From Gammaproteobacteria bacterium (GTDB lineage Bacteria > Pseudomonadota > Gammaproteobacteria > S144-34), in contig WFOW01000221.1 of NCBI GenBank assembly GCA_015487895.1, forward strand, positions 1 through 18,244: a stretch of 18,244 nucleotides of DNA, in the 5' to 3' direction. Positions 6,843-16,219 of this stretch are shown piece after piece. Every line of letters begins with the position of its first letter. Position 1 is the stretch's first letter. The notes under the pieces were generated by a model that was not told the origin of the DNA, made no database searches, and worked only from the letters and a program-made list of their open reading frames with translations. A program made the position numbers and the translations under genes.

Positions 6843-6892
6843 CGTCCCACCCGCACCTGCCGCCTCCGGCACGCAGCCGGTGGGGCATGGGC

Positions 6893-6922
6893 TTGCGCGG
6901 CGCACGATGTATGGCGTATGGT
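6893..6922 (+). promoter_or_regulatory. Candidate promoter/operator of the toxin-antitoxin pair
   Basis: TTGCGC (6893-6898), an 18-nt gap and TATGGT (6917-6922) resemble a sigma-70 promoter. The -10 lies in a direct repeat of GTATGG (6909-6914 and 6916-6921). Short repeats overlapping the promoter are where ribbon-helix-helix antitoxins usually bind to repress their own operon. This is suggestive only. Confidence 0.3.
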
Positions 6923-6958
6923 AGGTGGCGCCTCTTAGGGGACCATCGGAGGCGCGGC

Positions 6959-7198
6959 GTGGAGAAGACCACCATCTACCTGCCCCGGGAGCTGGAGCAG
7001 CGCCTCGCCCAGGCGGCCCGGCGGGCCGGCCGCAGCCGCGCCTCGCTCATCCGCGAGGCGCTCGAGCGGTATCTGACGGAGGAGGCGGCGGCCGTGCGGC
7101 CCGCCTCGCTCGGCGCCGGGAGCGACGAGGCGCTCTGCGGGCGCGAGGCCGAGGGCTGGCTGCGGGCGCGCTGGTCCGAGCGGCACGGCGGGTGCTGA
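6959..7198 (+). CDS. Ribbon-helix-helix (CopG/VapB-type) antitoxin
   Basis: The product has 79 residues. The N-terminal 45 residues have the ribbon-helix-helix pattern: a beta strand KTTIYLP (3-9), helix A (10-24) and helix B (about 28-43). This is a dimeric DNA-binding fold that represses its own promoter. The C-terminal half (about 44-79) is less ordered and should wrap the toxin. The GTG start at 6959 is chosen because GGAGG (6948-6952) sits 6 bp upstream and the residues before it are unlike the family. An upstream ATG at 6887 in the same frame is less likely. It overlaps the PIN gene by 7 nt, typical of antitoxin-first type II modules. Confidence 0.8.
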   Translation: MEKTTIYLPRELEQRLAQAARRAGRSRASLIREALERYLTEEAAAVRPASLGAGSDEALCGREAEGWLRARWSERHGGC

Positions 7199-7590
7199 CC
7201 CTCGACACCTCCGCCCTGTACGCCCTGGTCAACCGCCGCGACCCGGATCACGAGGCGGTGCGGGAGGCGCTCCTGGCCGACGGCGGCCCCTGGCTGGTGC
7301 CCGCGGCCATCCTCGGCGAGATCGCCTACCTGATCGAGGCGCGGCTGGGCGGGCGGGTCCTAGACCTGTTCCTGAAGGACCTCGAGGAAGGGGTGTTCGC
7401 GCTCGACTGCGGCCGCGAGCGCATCGGCCGCGCACGGGCCCTCGCCGCGCGCTACGCGGACCTGCCGCTCGGCCTCGCGGACGCGGCGGTGGCCGCCTGC
7501 GCCGCGGAGAACGGCGGGCGCGTGCTGACGCTCGACCGCCGCGGCTTCGAGGTCCTGGCGGGGGAGCTCCCGCTCAGCCTCCTGCCCTGA
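7192..7590 (+). CDS. PIN-domain ribonuclease toxin (VapC-like)
   Basis: The product has 132 residues and is a single PIN domain. Its four acidic residues are D5 (in LTLDTSALY), E43 (in AILGEIAYLIE), D97 (in GLADAAVAA) and D115 (in LTLDRRGF). They fit the magnesium-binding site of VapC-type endoribonucleases, which cut tRNA or rRNA when free of antitoxin. The GTG start at 7192 lies inside the antitoxin gene and puts the first Asp at position 5, as usual. The actual RNA target cannot be told. The gene ends 7 bp before the convergent last gene of the cco cluster. Confidence 0.85.
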   Translation: MLTLDTSALYALVNRRDPDHEAVREALLADGGPWLVPAAILGEIAYLIEARLGGRVLDLFLKDLEEGVFALDCGRERIGRARALAARYADLPLGLADAAVAACAAENGGRVLTLDRRGFEVLAGELPLSLLP

Positions 7591-7597
7591 CCCGCGC

Positions 7598-7687
7598 TCA
7601 GCCGAGCACGACCGACAGGAAGCTCAGCCAGGCGAGCGCCACCAGCGCGAGGATGATGGCCATCGGGAAGTTCTGGAACGTGAACAT
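7598..7687 (-). CDS. 29-residue single-helix membrane protein at the end of the cco cluster
   Basis: I do not recognise this protein. The 29 residues start MFTFQNFP and continue as one hydrophobic helix (about 7-28, with W20 and no charged residue anywhere), ending in VVLG. The ATG is 3 bp after the ccoS stop. A strong Shine-Dalgarno AAGGAGG lies in the last codons of ccoS, 8 nt before the ATG, so translation is coupled to ccoS. Small one-helix subunits are known in oxidases: CcoM in Pseudomonas stutzeri cbb3 and CydX in cytochrome bd. The sequence does not look like the CcoM I remember. A small accessory subunit or assembly peptide of the cbb3 oxidase is a reasonable inference. Chance openness is possible at this length, but the binding site, spacing and hydrophobicity argue against it. 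Confidence 0.6.
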   Translation of the reverse strand: MFTFQNFPMAIILALVALAWLSFLSVVLG

Positions 7688-7690
7688 CGG

Positions 7691-7921
7691 CTAGCCCTCC
7701 TTCTTCTCCACGGATTCCGGACTGTCCGGCCCCTCGCCGCGGGCGGGGCGGTCCGCCCCGCGGCGGTGCGGCACGCGCGGGTCGTCGTCGTCGAGGATCA
7801 CGCGCCAGGCCGGCCCCTCGAGGTCCTCGAACTGGCCCGAGCGCACGGCCCAGACGAAGGCCCACACCGCCGCGGCCAGCAGCACGAAGCCGAGCGGGAT
7901 GAGCAGGAACAGGATCTCCAT
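7691..7921 (-). CDS. ccoS: cbb3 oxidase maturation protein CcoS
   Basis: The product has 76 residues. It starts with one transmembrane helix (about 3-26), followed by the family's conserved segment with GQFEDLEGPAWRVILDDDD (about 29-47), then a variable charged tail. In Rhodobacter capsulatus CcoS is needed to put cofactors (heme b and Cu) into CcoN. The ATG lies 6 bp after the ccoI stop. The gene end carries the ribosome binding site of the 29-aa gene that follows. The tail after residue 47 is longer than in many homologues. Confidence 0.93.
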   Translation of the reverse strand: MEILFLLIPLGFVLLAAAVWAFVWAVRSGQFEDLEGPAWRVILDDDDPRVPHRRGADRPARGEGPDSPESVEKKEG

Positions 7922-10462: not shown

Positions 10463-11305
10463 TCACCGCCCGCCTCCCGTCCCGCGCCTCCCGTCACCGT
10501 CGAGCACCCAGGTCTCGCCGCGCAGCTCGAAGCGCTCGCCGCCGCGGCGCACGATCACCGTCACCTCCCAGCGCCCGGGCGCGGCGAGGGCCACCCGGCC
10601 ATGGTAGCGGCCGCCCCCGGCGGCGGCGAGCGCCAGCGCGCGGCCGAGCCCTTCCGCGCCGGGGCGCACGAAGCGCGCCTCGACGCGGGCGCCGTCGAGG
10701 GGGCCGCCGTCGCGCTCGCGCGCCTCCACCACGAACACGGCCGGCTCGCCCGCGCGCGGCGCGCCCGCCCAGCCGCCCTCCACGCGCCAGCCGAGGGCGC
10801 GCTGGCGCGCCAGCGCCTCGAGGCGCGCGCGGTGGGCGAGCGGGCGGCGCGCCGAGCCCTTGGTGACGGCGCCGGGAAAGCCCGTGGCCGCGACCTGCCC
10901 GCCCCCGCGCGGGGCGGGGAGCAGCCGCTGGGCGAGCCCGGCCGGAAGCCCGCGCTCCGCCACCAGCACGAAGACCACGTTGGCGGCCACCACCACGGCG
11001 AGGAAGGCGACGATGGCGGCCGGCACCGGATGCAGGCGCCGGCCGCCGCGCCGCGCCGCGCGCGCCTTGCCGAGGAGCGCGGCGGCGTAGCCCGTGAGCC
11101 CGTAGGCCGCGACGTGCAGCGCCGCCTCGTCGAGGCCCGGGGCGGGCGCGGAGCCGGCGAGCACCGCCGCCGCATAGCCCGCGAGCGCGAGCGCCACCGC
11201 CGCAGCCGCCGCCGCGGGCGGAGCCAGGCCCGCGAGGCGGCGGCCGGCGTGGTAGGCCACCATGACCACGAGCGCCCCACCCGCGGCGGTCAGCACCAGG
11301 CCCAT
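10463..11305 (-). CDS. ccoH: cbb3 oxidase assembly protein CcoH (FixH family) with N-terminal membrane extension
   Basis: The product has 280 residues, much longer than the usual 150-180 for FixH/CcoH. The FixH part begins around residue 92: a helix (about 93-116) with VAAN, then a periplasmic domain with the conserved ARQRALGW stretch and a beta-rich C-terminus. In front are about 85 extra residues that look like three hydrophobic segments (about 2-20, 31-51, 58-80). CcoH helps assemble the oxidase and contacts CcoN/CcoP in other bacteria. The ATG is one base after the ccoG stop, so the start is well supported and the extension is part of the same frame. The identity rests on position and the C-terminal half; the function of the extension is unknown. 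Confidence 0.8.
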   Translation of the reverse strand: MGLVLTAAGGALVVMVAYHAGRRLAGLAPPAAAAAAVALALAGYAAAVLAGSAPAPGLDEAALHVAAYGLTGYAAALLGKARAARRGGRRLHPVPAAIVAFLAVVVAANVVFVLVAERGLPAGLAQRLLPAPRGGGQVAATGFPGAVTKGSARRPLAHRARLEALARQRALGWRVEGGWAGAPRAGEPAVFVVEARERDGGPLDGARVEARFVRPGAEGLGRALALAAAGGGRYHGRVALAAPGRWEVTVIVRRGGERFELRGETWVLDGDGRRGTGGGR

Positions 11306-11306
11306 C

Positions 11307-12722
11307 TCAGCCCCCTCCCGCCGCCTGCGGCACGAAGAAGGGCGCCTCGCGCTCCACGGGCGCGACGCGCCCCCGGAGCTCCTCGACGCGGAAGCGGACG
11401 CGGCGCGCGGCGCCCTCGGGACGCTGGCGCACGCGGGCCAGCACCCGCACCATGCGCTCCGGGGCGAGGCGCACCGTGCGGATGCGGCCGAGGTCGAGCT
11501 CGGCGCCGGCGGGCGCCGCGAGGCGCACCGCGAGCTCCAGGGCGCGCTCGGTCTTGTTGACGAGCTTCAGCTCGTAGCCGTTCTGGATGCGCCCGTCCGA
11601 GAGGGTCACGTAGAGCGGCTGGCGCTGCTGGATCACGGTCGCCTCGAGCGGGGCGCGCGCGGCCACGCTCCAGGCGAGCAGCGCCACCGACAGCAGGAAG
11701 GCGGCCCCGTAGCCCAGCACCTTGGGACGCAGGATGCGCGTCGGACGGCCCGCCAGGGCGTTCTCGGAGGTGTAGCGGATGAGCCCGCGCGGCCAGCCGA
11801 GGCGGTCCATGACCGTGTCGCAGGCGTCGATGCACAGCGCGCAGGTGATGCACTGGTACTGCAGGCCGTCGCGGATGTCGATGCCCGTCGGGCACACCTG
11901 CACGCAGTAGCCGCAGTCGACGCAGTCGCCGTGGCCGGCGGCGTGGCGCTCGGCGCGCGTGCGCAGCCCCCGCACCGGCCGGTGGCGGCCCTTCCCGCCC
12001 TCGCCGCGGGCGCGGTCGTAGGCGACGATCAGGGTGTCGCGGTCGAACATCACCCCCTGGAAGCGCGCGTAGGGGCACATGTAGGTGCAGACCTGCTCGC
12101 GCGCGATGCCGGCCATCACGTAGGTGGTGGCCGTGAGGAAGGCCGCCGTGGCGTAGGCCGGGAAGGGCGCGGCGCCCGCGAAGAAGGCGCGCGCGAGCTG
12201 CGGGGCGTCGGCCCAGTAGAGGGTGAAGGTGAGCCCCGTGGCGAAGGCCACCGCGAGCCACAGCAGGTGCGTGAGCCCCTTCTTGCGGATCTTCTCCGCG
12301 TTCCACGGCTGCGCCTCGAGCCGCAGGCGCGCCGCGCGCTCGCCCTGCACCAGCCGCTCGACGAGCTGGTAGACGTCGGTCCACAGCGTCTGGAAGCAGA
12401 AGTAGCCGCAGAAGACGCGGCCCGCGAGCGAGGTGACGAAGAACAGCAGCAGCGCCGCGGCGACCAGCACGCCCGCGAGCCAGAAGATGTCGTCGGGGTG
12501 GACGACGAGGCCGAAGACGTAGAAGCGCCGCGCCGGCAGGTCGAAGAGCACCGCCTGGTCCGGGCCGGCGGGCCGCTCCCAGCGCAGCCAGGGCAGCAGG
12601 AAGTAGACGCCGTAGGCGAGGGCGAGGACCGCGTACTTCAGCCGCCGGAAGCGCCCGCGCACCGAGCGCGGGTGGATGGGGATGCGCTTCGCGTAGAGCG
12701 CGCCCTCGCCGCCGGTGCTCAT
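11307..12722 (-). CDS. ccoG: cbb3 oxidase accessory protein CcoG (RdxA/FixG), polyferredoxin
   Basis: The product has 471 residues and is a membrane iron-sulfur protein. In Rhodobacter the homologue is reported to reduce Cu(II) to Cu(I) for CcoN. It has predicted helices near 30-45, 80-97, 150-170, 187-205 and 336-352, and a membrane Cys pair C105-x3-C109 and C212-x3-C216. Two ferredoxin clusters follow: C267, C270, C273, C277 and C291, C294, C297, C301. The C-terminal 110 residues form the Ig-like FixG domain on the periplasmic side. All cysteines expected for two [4Fe-4S] clusters are there. The gene starts 164 bp after ccoP, beyond a probable terminator, and is coupled to ccoH by one base. 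No strong ribosome binding site is seen. Confidence 0.96.
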   Translation of the reverse strand: MSTGGEGALYAKRIPIHPRSVRGRFRRLKYAVLALAYGVYFLLPWLRWERPAGPDQAVLFDLPARRFYVFGLVVHPDDIFWLAGVLVAAALLLFFVTSLAGRVFCGYFCFQTLWTDVYQLVERLVQGERAARLRLEAQPWNAEKIRKKGLTHLLWLAVAFATGLTFTLYWADAPQLARAFFAGAAPFPAYATAAFLTATTYVMAGIAREQVCTYMCPYARFQGVMFDRDTLIVAYDRARGEGGKGRHRPVRGLRTRAERHAAGHGDCVDCGYCVQVCPTGIDIRDGLQYQCITCALCIDACDTVMDRLGWPRGLIRYTSENALAGRPTRILRPKVLGYGAAFLLSVALLAWSVAARAPLEATVIQQRQPLYVTLSDGRIQNGYELKLVNKTERALELAVRLAAPAGAELDLGRIRTVRLAPERMVRVLARVRQRPEGAARRVRFRVEELRGRVAPVEREAPFFVPQAAGGG

Positions 12723-12886: not shown

Positions 12887-13819
12887 TCACCGGCCTCCGC
12901 CCAGCTCGTGGACGTAGACCGTCAGGAGCTTGATCTGCACGGGGTCGAGGCGGTCCTTCCACGCCGGCATGGTGCGGCGGATGCCGTCGCGCACCACGCG
13001 CTTGACCTCCTCCTTCTTGCCCGCGAGCGTCGGCCGGCCGGGGACGTCGGCCACGGTCCAGATGCGGTCGGTGAGGTCGGCCGCCCCCTGCGACTTCAGG
13101 CCCGTGCCCTCCCTGGTGTGGCAGTAGTGGCAGCCGCCGGTCTCGCCGCGGAAGATGCGCGCCCCGCGCGCGGCCGCCTCGGGGTCGACCTCGTGGCCCG
13201 AGAGGCTCAGCACGAAGGCGGCGACGTCGTCGAGCTGGCGCTCGCTCAGCGCCTCGCCGAAGGCGGGCATGAAGCCCTGGCGCCCCTCGCGGATGGAGGT
13301 CTCGATGTCCTCGACGGTGCCGCCCCACAGCCAGGCGTCGTCGGCGAGGTTCGGGAACAGGCCGATGCGGCCCTTGCCGTCGCTGCCGTGGCAGGGCGCG
13401 CAGTTGTCGCCGTAGACCCCCTTGGCCATGGACCAGGCGAAGCCCTTCATGTCGGGGTCGGCGAGGATCTCGTCGTAGCCCGCCGCCGCGACCTTCTCCA
13501 GGTACTGGCGCTGGCGGCGCGCGGCGGGGCTGTCCTGGAGCTCGAGCATCAGCCGCGCGCGCGTGTTCCAGTGCGTGGTGACGGTCTCGCCCCCGGCCTG
13601 GAAGGTCACCCGGTTGAGCACGCCCTTCGTATAGTCGCGCCCCACCGGCCAGGCGGGATACAGGAACCAGTAGACCACGGCGAAGACCACGGTGCCGTAG
13701 AAGGCCCACAGCCACCAGCGCGGCAGCGGGTTGTTGAACTCCTGCAGGTCGCCGTCCCAGGCGTGGCCCGTGGTCTGGACGGCGGCCCCGCGGCCCTTGT
13801 CAGCGCCCCTGTCGCTCAT
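12887..13819 (-). CDS. ccoP: cbb3-type cytochrome c oxidase subunit III, CcoP (diheme c)
   Basis: The product has 310 residues. It is the membrane-anchored diheme cytochrome c that takes electrons into the oxidase. One helix (about 36-54) anchors it with the bulk in the periplasm. Heme c sites are C140-x2-C143-H144 (CAPCH) and C230-x2-C233-H234 (CHYCH), with candidate Met ligands M184 (FMPAF) and M284 (TMPAW). The N-terminal segment with HAWDGDLQEFNNPLPRWW is the CcoP_N signature. Its ATG lies inside the end of ccoQ (20-nt overlap), and it closes the ccoNOQP structural set. Confidence 0.97.
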   Translation of the reverse strand: MSDRGADKGRGAAVQTTGHAWDGDLQEFNNPLPRWWLWAFYGTVVFAVVYWFLYPAWPVGRDYTKGVLNRVTFQAGGETVTTHWNTRARLMLELQDSPAARRQRQYLEKVAAAGYDEILADPDMKGFAWSMAKGVYGDNCAPCHGSDGKGRIGLFPNLADDAWLWGGTVEDIETSIREGRQGFMPAFGEALSERQLDDVAAFVLSLSGHEVDPEAAARGARIFRGETGGCHYCHTREGTGLKSQGAADLTDRIWTVADVPGRPTLAGKKEEVKRVVRDGIRRTMPAWKDRLDPVQIKLLTVYVHELGGGR

Positions 13820-14009
13820 CGCTTCGCACCCCGTCGTCGCGCGGCTCGTCGTCCTCGAGCGGGATCCACTTGTAGGACTCGAGCCGCTGCTTGCGCGCCT
13901 TGCCGGTGTAGACGTAGATCACCACACCCATGAAGCCGAAGAAGAACAGCAGCAGCGCCACCGTCCCCGCGTTGCGGGGCTGGACGATCCACTGCCAGAA
14001 GGCCTCCAT
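13800..14009 (-). CDS. ccoQ: cbb3-type cytochrome oxidase subunit IV, CcoQ
   Basis: The product has 69 residues and one transmembrane helix (about 13-33), followed by a charged cytoplasmic tail with the family's YKWIPLEDDE stretch (46-55). CcoQ has no cofactor and stabilises the oxidase, partly through CcoP. The ATG is 7 bp after the ccoO stop, and the end overlaps ccoP by 20 nt. Confidence 0.93.
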   Translation of the reverse strand: MEAFWQWIVQPRNAGTVALLLFFFGFMGVVIYVYTGKARKQRLESYKWIPLEDDEPRDDGVRSDERQGR

Positions 14010-14016
14010 CGCCGGA

Positions 14017-14754
14017 TCAGCGGAACTGCACGAAGTAGGCCTCGCCGTACTTCTTGAAGTCCACCATGGTGCCGAGGGCCTGGAGATAGGCGACGATGGC
14101 GTCCATCTCCGTCAGCCGGCGGCGGTCGCCGTCGTAGTTGCCGGCCTCGGCCTGGGCGAGCAGCGCCTCCTCGGCGCGGCGGATGTCGAGCCGGTCGGCC
14201 ACGGCCTTGCCCCAGCGCTCGACGTTGCGCCGGTACTCGGCCTCGGTGAGCGAGTAGGGCACGCCCGCCTTGCGCAGCGCCGCCATGCGCCGGGCGATGT
14301 CGCCGTAGTCGAGCTCGCGCTCCATCAGCCAGGGATAGGCCGGCATGATGGACTCCGGCACCACCGAGCGCGGGTCGATCAGGTGCTGGACGTGCCAGGC
14401 GTTGGAGTACTTGCCGCCCACGCGCGCAAGATCCGGCCCCGTGCGCTTCGAGCCCCACAGGAAGGGGTGGTCGTACCGCGACTCGGCCGCGAGCGAGTAG
14501 TGCCCGTAGCGCAGCCACTCGTCGCGCAGCGGGCGCACCATCTGCGAGTGGCAGTAGAAGCAGCCCTCGCGCTGGTAGATGTCGCGCCCGCGCAGCTCCA
14601 GCGGCGTGTAGGGGCGCACCTCGGGCACCGCCTCCACGGTGGAGGGGATCTTGAACAGGGGCACGATCTCCACCAGGCCGCCCACGCTGATGACGACCAG
14701 GGTGAGGGCGATCAGCAGCCCCGCGTTGATCTCGATCTGCTCGTGCCGGAACAT
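14017..14754 (-). CDS. ccoO: cbb3-type cytochrome c oxidase subunit II, CcoO (monoheme c)
   Basis: The product has 245 residues. It is a membrane-anchored monoheme cytochrome c that passes electrons from CcoP to CcoN. It has an N-terminal helix (about 11-34) and a periplasmic domain with heme site C65-x2-C68-H69 (CFYCH), the following SQMVRP segment, and Met ligand M137 in [10 protein letters not shown]. The end [16 protein letters not shown] is typical of the family. It starts 10 bp after the ccoN stop. Confidence 0.98.
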
Positions 14755-14764
14755 CGCAGCCCCC

Positions 14765-16219
14765 TCAGCCGCGCGCGGCCAGCTTGGCGGCGAGCTTGGC
14801 CTCGAGGGCGGCCGCCTCGCGCCGCGCCGCCGCCACCGTCATGGCGAAGTTGTAGACCATCACCAGCACGCCGGCGAGGAAGAAGGCCCCGCCGATGGCG
14901 CGCACCACGTAGGGCCAGTGCAGGAAGCGCACGGTCTCGATGAAGGAGTAGGCGAGGTTGCCGTACTCGTCGAAGCCGCGCAGCATCAGGCCCTGGCCGA
15001 TGCCCGCCACCCACATGGCCGTGATGTAGAGCACGATGCCGATGGTGGCGAGCCAGAAGTGCACGTAGACCAGGCGCGTGCTGTGGAGCCGGGTGTCCCA
15101 CAGGCGCGGCACCAGGTGATAGAAGGAGCCGAAGGTGATCATGGCCACCCAGCCGAGCGCGCCCGAATGCACGTGGCCGATGGTCCAGTCGGTGTAGTGC
15201 GAGAGGGCGTTGACGCTCTTGAGCGACATCATCGGCCCCTCGAAGGTGGACATGCCGTAGAAGGACAGCCCCGTGATCAGGAACAGCATCACGGGATCGG
15301 TGCGCAGCTTCTCCCAGGCGCCCGACAGCGTCATGATGCCGTTGATCATGCCGCCCCAGGAGGGCAGCAGCAGCATCACCGAGAAGGTCGCCGCCAGCGT
15401 CGAGGTCCAGTCGGGCAGCGCCGTCCAGTGCAGGTGGTGGCCGCCCGCCCACATGTAGAGGAAGATCAGCGCCCAGAAGTGGATGATGGAGAGCCGGTAG
15501 GAGTAGACCGGCCGCCCCGCCTGCTTGGGCACGAAGTAGTACATCATGCCGAGGAAGGCGGCGGTGAGGAAGAAGCCCACCGCGTTGTGGCCGTACCACC
15601 ACTGCGTCATGGCGTCCTGCACGCCCGAGAACAGCGAGTAGGACTTGGTGAGGCTCACCGGGATGGCGAGGTTGTTGAAGACGTGCAGGATGGCGGTGGC
15701 GAGGATGAAGCCGACGTAGAACCAGTTGGCGACGTAGATGTGCGGCTGGGAGCGCCGCCTGAGGGTGGCCACGTAGAGATAGAGGTAGGCCACCCAGACC
15801 ACGGTGATGAGGATGTCGATGGGCCACTCGAACTCGGCGTACTCGCGCGACTGCGTGATGCCGAGCATGTAGCTGAGGGCCCCGAGGCCGACGGCGGCGT
15901 TCCAGCCCCAGAAGGTGAAGCTGGCGAGCGTGTCGCTGGCGAGCCGCGCCTGGCAGGTGCGCTGCACGACGTAGTAGCTGGTGGCGAACAGCGCCGAGCC
16001 GCCGAAGCCGAAGATGACGAGCGTGGTGTGCACCGGGCGCAGGCGCCCGAAGGTGAGCTCCGGGATCTCCAGGTTCAGCCACGGGAAGGAAAGCTCCAGG
16101 GCCGCGTAGAGCCCGGCGAGCATCCCCAGCACGCCCCATACGAGGGCGGCGATGGTGAACCGGCGGACGATCTCGTAGTTGTAGGGCTGGGCCGCGCTGG
16201 CCACGGTGGTCTGGACCAT
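14765..16219 (-). CDS. ccoN: cbb3-type cytochrome c oxidase catalytic subunit I, CcoN
   Basis: The product has 484 residues and 12 predicted helices. It is the heme b / heme b3-CuB subunit that reduces O2 to water and pumps protons with high oxygen affinity. The expected ligands are present with constant spacing to the P. stutzeri enzyme: H64 and H351 (low-spin heme b), H349 (heme b3), H211, H261 and H262 (CuB), Y255 (the Tyr cross-linked to a CuB His) and E327. No residue I checked is missing. The ATG at 16219 follows purine-rich AGGAGGCGAGGGG. It is the first gene of ccoNOQP, with its own promoter candidate in the 165-bp spacer after ctaB. Confidence 0.98.

Follow-up and report, generated by a model that had tools for sequence, protein, structure and literature searches.

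A 29-codon open reading frame (ORF), placed directly after ccoS in a gammaproteobacterial cbb3 oxidase cluster, is by its codon-level pattern a real protein-coding gene with a conserved family behind it. This family is tied to one branch of the cbb3 oxidases, and in the sampled class it is found essentially nowhere else. We read the peptide as a small structural (accessory) subunit of that oxidase branch, comparable to CcoM or CydX, and assign this interpretation a probability of roughly 55%. The stretch of DNA that was analysed, 18,244 nucleotides long, is called the window throughout.

The peptide gene and its setting

The peptide ORF occupies window positions 7598-7687 on the minus strand (the original prediction had left the strand unstated), with its ATG at 7687 and its TGA ending at 7598. 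It has 29 codons plus the TGA stop; the product, MFTFQNFPMAIILALVALAWLSFLSVVLG, has a predicted mass of 3214 Da and lacks D, E, K, R and H altogether. The cluster is wholly on the minus strand and runs in the order ccoN, ccoO, ccoQ, ccoP, ccoG, ccoH, ccoI, ccoS, peptide:

7598..7687, minus strand: peptide ORF, predicted one-helix membrane protein (ORF reading; conserved family)
7691..7921, minus strand: ccoS, assembly protein (PF03597, E 8.1e-20; TIGR00847, E 2e-17)
7696..7702, minus strand: Shine-Dalgarno sequence AAGGAGG, 8 nt ahead of the peptide ATG, within the final ccoS codons
7928..10444, minus strand: ccoI, copper P-type ATPase (PF00122, PF12156, PF00403)
10463..11305, minus strand: ccoH (FixH; PF05751, E 4.5e-17)
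11307..12722, minus strand: ccoG-like ORF (gene order and sequence; tblastn matches at the equivalent place in many relatives)
12887..13819, minus strand: ccoP, of the peptide-associated one-helix branch (gene order and sequence)
13800..14009, minus strand: ccoQ-like ORF (position and sequence; NCBIfam scan match at chance level)
14017..14754, minus strand: ccoO (gene order and sequence; within the peptide-positive clade of the CcoO tree)
14765..16219, minus strand: ccoN (TIGR00780 match over 14813-16186, 700.7 bits, above cut-off)

The names ccoG, ccoP, ccoQ and ccoO are presumptive, given from gene order and sequence. The ATG, the 29 codons, the AAGGAGG at 8 nt, the uncharged product and the distance of 3 nt from the ccoS stop to the peptide ATG are all as first proposed, and the peptide does close the minus-strand cbb3 cluster after ccoS. 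Because the gap is only 3 nt, translational coupling of the peptide to ccoS is suggested in the window. The same genome carries another ccoN/ccoP pair, belonging to the other sequence type (G000:C418:3288-5751), so that two cbb3 types coexist there.

Convergent neighbours of the peptide on the plus strand are a ribbon-helix-helix ORF, a PIN ORF and, beyond these, a sigma-70-region ORF that we take to be rpoH. The first two form a toxin-antitoxin-like pair (6887-7590), which sits between peptide and rpoH and ends 7 nt from the peptide stop. Within the window's genus, the RpoH match lies at +279 in one genome (G001) versus +876 in another (G002), and since the former has no room for such a pair, the pair may be a recent insertion.

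Distribution of the peptide family

Searched with the single peptide sequence, 15 of 56 relatives showed matches at E values up to 10; the five best outside the window's genus (E 1.6e-8 to 5.7e-4) have ccoS upstream in four cases and none nearby in the fifth (G045). By profile search (E <1e-3), 44 of the 274 class genomes contain the family, the ten profile rows having all been supplied by ten of these 44 positives. The raw count was 45; one match (G203) forms part of a 191-residue ORF with no cco gene alongside and was removed. Counting the window, 38 of the 44 genomes have the peptide start no more than 500 nt 3′ of a same-strand CcoS match. A further genome (G057) shows a gap of about 1.4 kb, and the remaining five (G045, G185, G069, G076 and G091) have no CcoS match near the peptide within the fetched stretch.

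A scan of named genomes with a peptide pattern that makes no use of ccoS gave a comparable picture: among the best 80 of 115 relatives, ccoS lies upstream on the same strand, 3-401 nt away, at 75 of the 80 loci, several of which come from genomes also in the class sample (L095, for example, is G002). Their titles include Thiohalobacter, Thioalkalivibrio, Thiohalophilus, Thiogranum, Plasticicumulans, Competibacter, Contendobacter, Halothiobacillus, Sulfuricella, Sulfurimicrobium and a Methylobacillus MAG. The family is nonetheless narrow in distribution, since a phylum-wide sample of 249 genomes contains it in only 2, one of them the window's own.

On its 3′ side, the peptide is followed by a convergent RpoH match in 31 of the 44 genomes (window counted; the one in G173 at only 46% identity), including the five in which ccoS is away; the other 13 positives have none within the fetched 3′ stretch of 2 to 5.7 kb. 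The peptide gene thus accompanies ccoGHIS and rpoH rather than ccoNOQP.

Codon-level selection

Over 32 pairs of loci without shared sequence, chosen by ORF nucleotide identity and possibly linked by common ancestry, dN/dS is 0.13, with 243 synonymous differences on 592 sites and 150 nonsynonymous differences on 2000 sites. Differences at codon positions 1, 2 and 3 number 111, 37 and 245. In frames shifted by one or two, pN/pS rises to 1.3 and 3.8, and none of 1000 random placements had an equally low nonsynonymous fraction. Because the loci had been found through amino-acid patterns, codons 9-18, outside both search patterns, were tested separately and gave dN/dS of 0.28; CcoS codons 6-50 gave 0.07 in 27 of the 32 pairs. 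Purifying selection acts on the peptide, though less tightly than on CcoS, as the values of 0.28 and 0.07 indicate. Identity falls from 85% in the ORF to 39% in the 60 nt 3′ of the stop (ungapped), a rough guide in that pairs were selected on ORF identity and indels disallowed. A Shine-Dalgarno-like tetramer stands 4-14 nt ahead of a start in 65 of 81 loci, versus 18% at random positions in the same loci.

The original prediction had argued for a real gene, and this is borne out by the recurrent frame and neighbour (44 of 274 genomes; 80 named loci) together with purifying selection. Frame, start region and ribosome-binding site are kept 3′ of ccoS in relatives, and nonsynonymous changes per site run far below synonymous ones in both estimates. 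An ORF of 29 codons, taken alone, could arise by chance; however, with selection visible at the codon level, no random placement as low, and both the reading frame and the Shine-Dalgarno sequence conserved, we give a spurious ORF or non-coding element a next to negligible probability.

A predicted transmembrane helix

AlphaFold modelled a 31-aa member of the family (L099, in place of the window peptide) with 25 relatives as a single helix spanning residues 4-30, at a mean pLDDT of 92, and the peptide is accordingly modelled as one transmembrane helix. Conservation across the 80 named loci is highest at F2, F4, N6, P8, I11, L15, A/S19, W20, S22, F23, S25 and V26, and no charged residue occurs at positions 7-27 in any member. 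Since 79 of the 80 members have neither Cys nor His (one has), metal or haem binding by the peptide is unlikely. Over 75 rows in register, the periodicity of conservation peaks at 100 degrees, the value expected of a helix face; this signal is weak, 619 of 10,000 shuffles being equally strong. The flanks carry 27 K/R and 53 D/E on the N-terminal side against 0 K/R and 2 D/E on the C-terminal side. Because the K/R sit in the N-flanks, the positive-inside rule suggests a cytoplasmic N-terminus.

Comparison with known small oxidase proteins

The window peptide has no Pfam or NCBIfam match above the curated cut-offs, and 43 family members gave only scattered weak matches against the same collections (best E 0.028). 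CcoM (36 residues, Pseudomonas stutzeri, PDB 5djq chain N) resembles the peptide in being a single helix of about 30-36 residues associated with cbb3, but its C-terminus is charged where that of the peptide is uncharged. A search of the PDB, which includes CcoM, with the family profile (hmmsearch) returned no matches, and hhalign of the family against CcoM gave a probability of 0.4%, that is, no relation. On these two results, a diverged CcoM was rejected as the identity of the peptide.

CydX and YnhF/CydH are small subunits of cytochrome bd, and CcoQ/FixQ is a one-helix small protein of the cbb3 cluster. CydX and YnhF/CydH resemble the role proposed here, as one-helix terminal-oxidase subunits from very short genes, but they belong to another oxidase class, and the 43 members have no match to such families in Pfam or NCBIfam. 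CcoQ/FixQ shares the single helix, the small size and the cbb3 cluster with the peptide; it differs in that the window operon has a separate CcoQ-like ORF (13800-14009) and in that no FixQ match was found among the 43 members. CcoS/FixS is likewise a small protein and a neighbour in the same cluster, but CcoS occurs in 152 of 274 class genomes, whereas the peptide is restricted to a single oxidase branch. YnhF has been described as a small cytochrome bd subunit (PMC9264385); the titles and abstracts covered by our literature search hold no account of a peptide like the present one. A one-helix oxidase accessory protein is a known kind, of which the peptide family appears to be a new member.

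Association with one cbb3 oxidase branch

All 44 positives have ccoN above the TIGR00780 cut-off and ccoS above the PF03597 cut-off, compared with 143 and 152 of the 274 class genomes overall. Since 99 of the 143 ccoN-bearing genomes have no peptide, it does not accompany cbb3 in general. What the positives share is a particular CcoP, present in 43 of 44 positives versus 2 of 230 negatives. The query for this branch CcoP, an N-terminal part taken from a positive (G037), splits the class sharply, with 45 genomes at or above 94 bits and the next value at 76.8, the 94-bit threshold having been set after the gap was visible. The sole positive without branch CcoP (G002) belongs to the window's genus, and its matching ccoN (98% identical) runs into a contig end.

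The two negatives with branch CcoP, G118 and G233, belong to one genus; their best peptide match (E 0.89) is unconvincing. Their CcoP proteins (at loci L282 and L281, respectively) are 210-235 residues long, carry a single CxxCH and stand beside ccoN-ccoO; no ccoG, H, I or S occurs in the 12-18 kb fetched around them, and in G233 ccoI and ccoS are present on another contig. This oxidase with a one-haem CcoP is possibly decaying or specialised.

A CcoO tree of 61 rows, comprising 37 of the 44 positives (window counted) and 24 of the 99 ccoN-positive negatives, separates the 37 positives from all other rows by a long branch (length 0.58, support 100/99). Where a positive had more than one ccoN, its row was taken from the copy belonging to the shared branch. 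Because the positives form one CcoO clade, the co-occurrence may reflect one event followed by retention instead of many independent ones. The association also holds in the five genomes where the peptide is away from ccoS, and in another (G269) where it lies 214 kb from ccoN. Conversely, the 0.8-0.9 kb after ccoS contain no profile match in the 40 genomes examined out of 108 ccoS-bearing peptide-negatives (best E 0.6). One such negative (G184) has an unrelated hydrophobic ORF of 40 residues after ccoS.

CcoP could be read in the window and in 33 of the 36 positives that were fetched, and none of these 34 proteins has a hydrophobic stretch before the TTGHxWD motif. Of 24 sampled negatives, eight carry an extra N-terminal CcoP helix (seven found automatically, G147 by eye), a further 11 possess a one-helix CcoP that differs in sequence type, and five are unreadable. 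The peptide might thus be imagined to substitute for the missing first transmembrane helix of CcoP, or to be a CcoM that has diverged, CcoM itself being found in just one of the 274 class genomes (G163), which is peptide-negative. Yet the substitution is weakened by the 11 genomes that have a one-helix CcoP and no peptide, the CcoM comparison speaks for itself at 0.4%, and the flank charges suggest an N-inside orientation, opposite to that expected for CcoP helix 1 and for CcoM. We regard both ideas as very improbable.

A putative promoter and other transcription signals

In many carriers, the peptide gene seems to have a promoter of its own. A conserved core, ATWAGAWWHCNCTWAT, lies 5′ of the peptide at 13/15 or better in 35 of 81 loci, the core having been derived from the same loci as were counted; in the background, 2 of 1544 windows reach 13 and none exceeds it. 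The best -35 in six registers, which had no part in choosing the loci, begins with TTG in 35 of 35 at a spacing of 17 or 18 nt, and reads TTGAAG or TTGATG in 24 of them. Scanning 285 loci for exact matches to TTGA, a spacer of 16-18 nt and the core gave one match each in 25 (19 distinct places, as loci overlap), and by coordinates all 25 lie just 5′ of the peptide on the same strand. The promoter-like element reads TTGAWG, 17 nt, TAAGAT or TAGAAT, then CNCTWAT (for example L112:4943-4980 and L137:4946-4983). Its -35 falls within the last ccoS codons in several loci, and the conserved stretch beyond the -10 may be an operator. In the window the element is absent (best score 7/15). FNR/ANR boxes number zero in the window at up to one mismatch and zero in 80 loci within 250 nt upstream.

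A hairpin followed by a T-run occurs within 110 nt after the stop in 47 of 81 loci. Given these and the convergent 3′ neighbours in the window, a leader peptide serving a downstream gene was considered and judged unlikely.

Subunit, assembly factor or regulator

The near one-to-one association with one oxidase branch indirectly favours the original suggestion of a cbb3 subunit or assembly peptide. We envision that a peptide of about 30 residues would be translated, would insert as a single transmembrane helix with its N-terminus in the cytoplasm, and could dock on the large oxidase subunits via a conserved face of P8, L15, A/S19, S22, F23 and V26, thereby stabilising the oxidase complex. We prefer a subunit to an assembly factor because the peptide tracks the oxidase branch, not ccoS generally, and has no residues suited to metal or haem chemistry.

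The main rival, which we hold to be unlikely though well short of implausible, is an assembly or maturation factor that aids CcoG, CcoH, CcoI and CcoS and is not retained in the finished oxidase. The proximity to ccoS (38 of 44 genomes; 75 of 80 named loci) speaks for it, and persists even where ccoN is elsewhere, as in G269; the company of ccoGHIS and rpoH rather than ccoNOQP fits it as well as it fits a subunit. However, ccoS accompanies all cbb3 types, yet none of the 40 examined negatives has the peptide after ccoS; the peptide follows the oxidase branch and is without metal-binding residues. The subunit reading is itself tempered by the single clade, in which co-occurrence may be one event, by the weakness of the helix-face signal, and by weak matches away from cco genes in four genomes (G028, G173, G237 and G123).

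These weak matches bear equally on a further candidate, a small regulatory membrane protein for another process that is carried at a conserved locus beside rpoH. Such a role would suit the convergent RpoH match in 31 of 44 genomes, the five genomes in which the peptide remains beside RpoH without ccoS, the predicted promoter in 35 of 81 loci and the weak extra copies that adjoin other genes. But within the class sample the peptide occurs solely in ccoN genomes, 43 of 44 with branch CcoP, and 13 positives lack RpoH across the 2 to 5.7 kb stretch on its 3′ side; rpoH is presumably present in most peptide-negative genomes too. We consider this role improbable.

Turning back to the subunit reading, a tentative extension, to which we lean slightly less than to its converse, is that a constitutive, unrecognised subunit marks a separate cbb3 branch of sulfur-oxidising and related Gammaproteobacteria, with a one-helix CcoP, a divergent CcoO and an added helix, often under its own promoter. 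If so, cbb3 structures and assembly models based on Pseudomonas or Rhodobacter would be without a component kept by a whole branch, and the conserved promoter in many carriers would make peptide supply adjustable apart from the oxidase operon. If the subunit reading holds, the purified oxidase should contain a component of about 3.2 kDa. The peptide is a clear test case, being a conserved microprotein that gene callers easily overlook and that has named cultivated hosts, among them Plasticicumulans acidivorans, Thiohalobacter thiocyanaticus and Thioalkalivibrio denitrificans.

Further copies and an atypical contig

Two tandem copies of the peptide, spaced 229 and 236 nt apart, stand beside rpoH at L062 (G091) and L074 (G076), with no ccoS in the fetched stretch. 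The weak extra profile matches away from cco genes (E 5e-6 to 0.05), all in peptide-positive genomes, are L083 and L085 (G173), L089 and L092 (G028), L084 (G237) and L091 (G123); L092 has an internal stop. Their neighbours, named by eye, resemble coq7, a glutamate-cysteine ligase and ppk. Because these matches stand away from cco genes, part of the family may act outside cbb3 loci. Finally, a contig assigned by its label to a Synechococcaceae cyanobacterium MAG (L102, JAAUTD010000200.1) carries ccoS and a peptide that, by eye, is Competibacteraceae-like; this contig is probably mis-binned.
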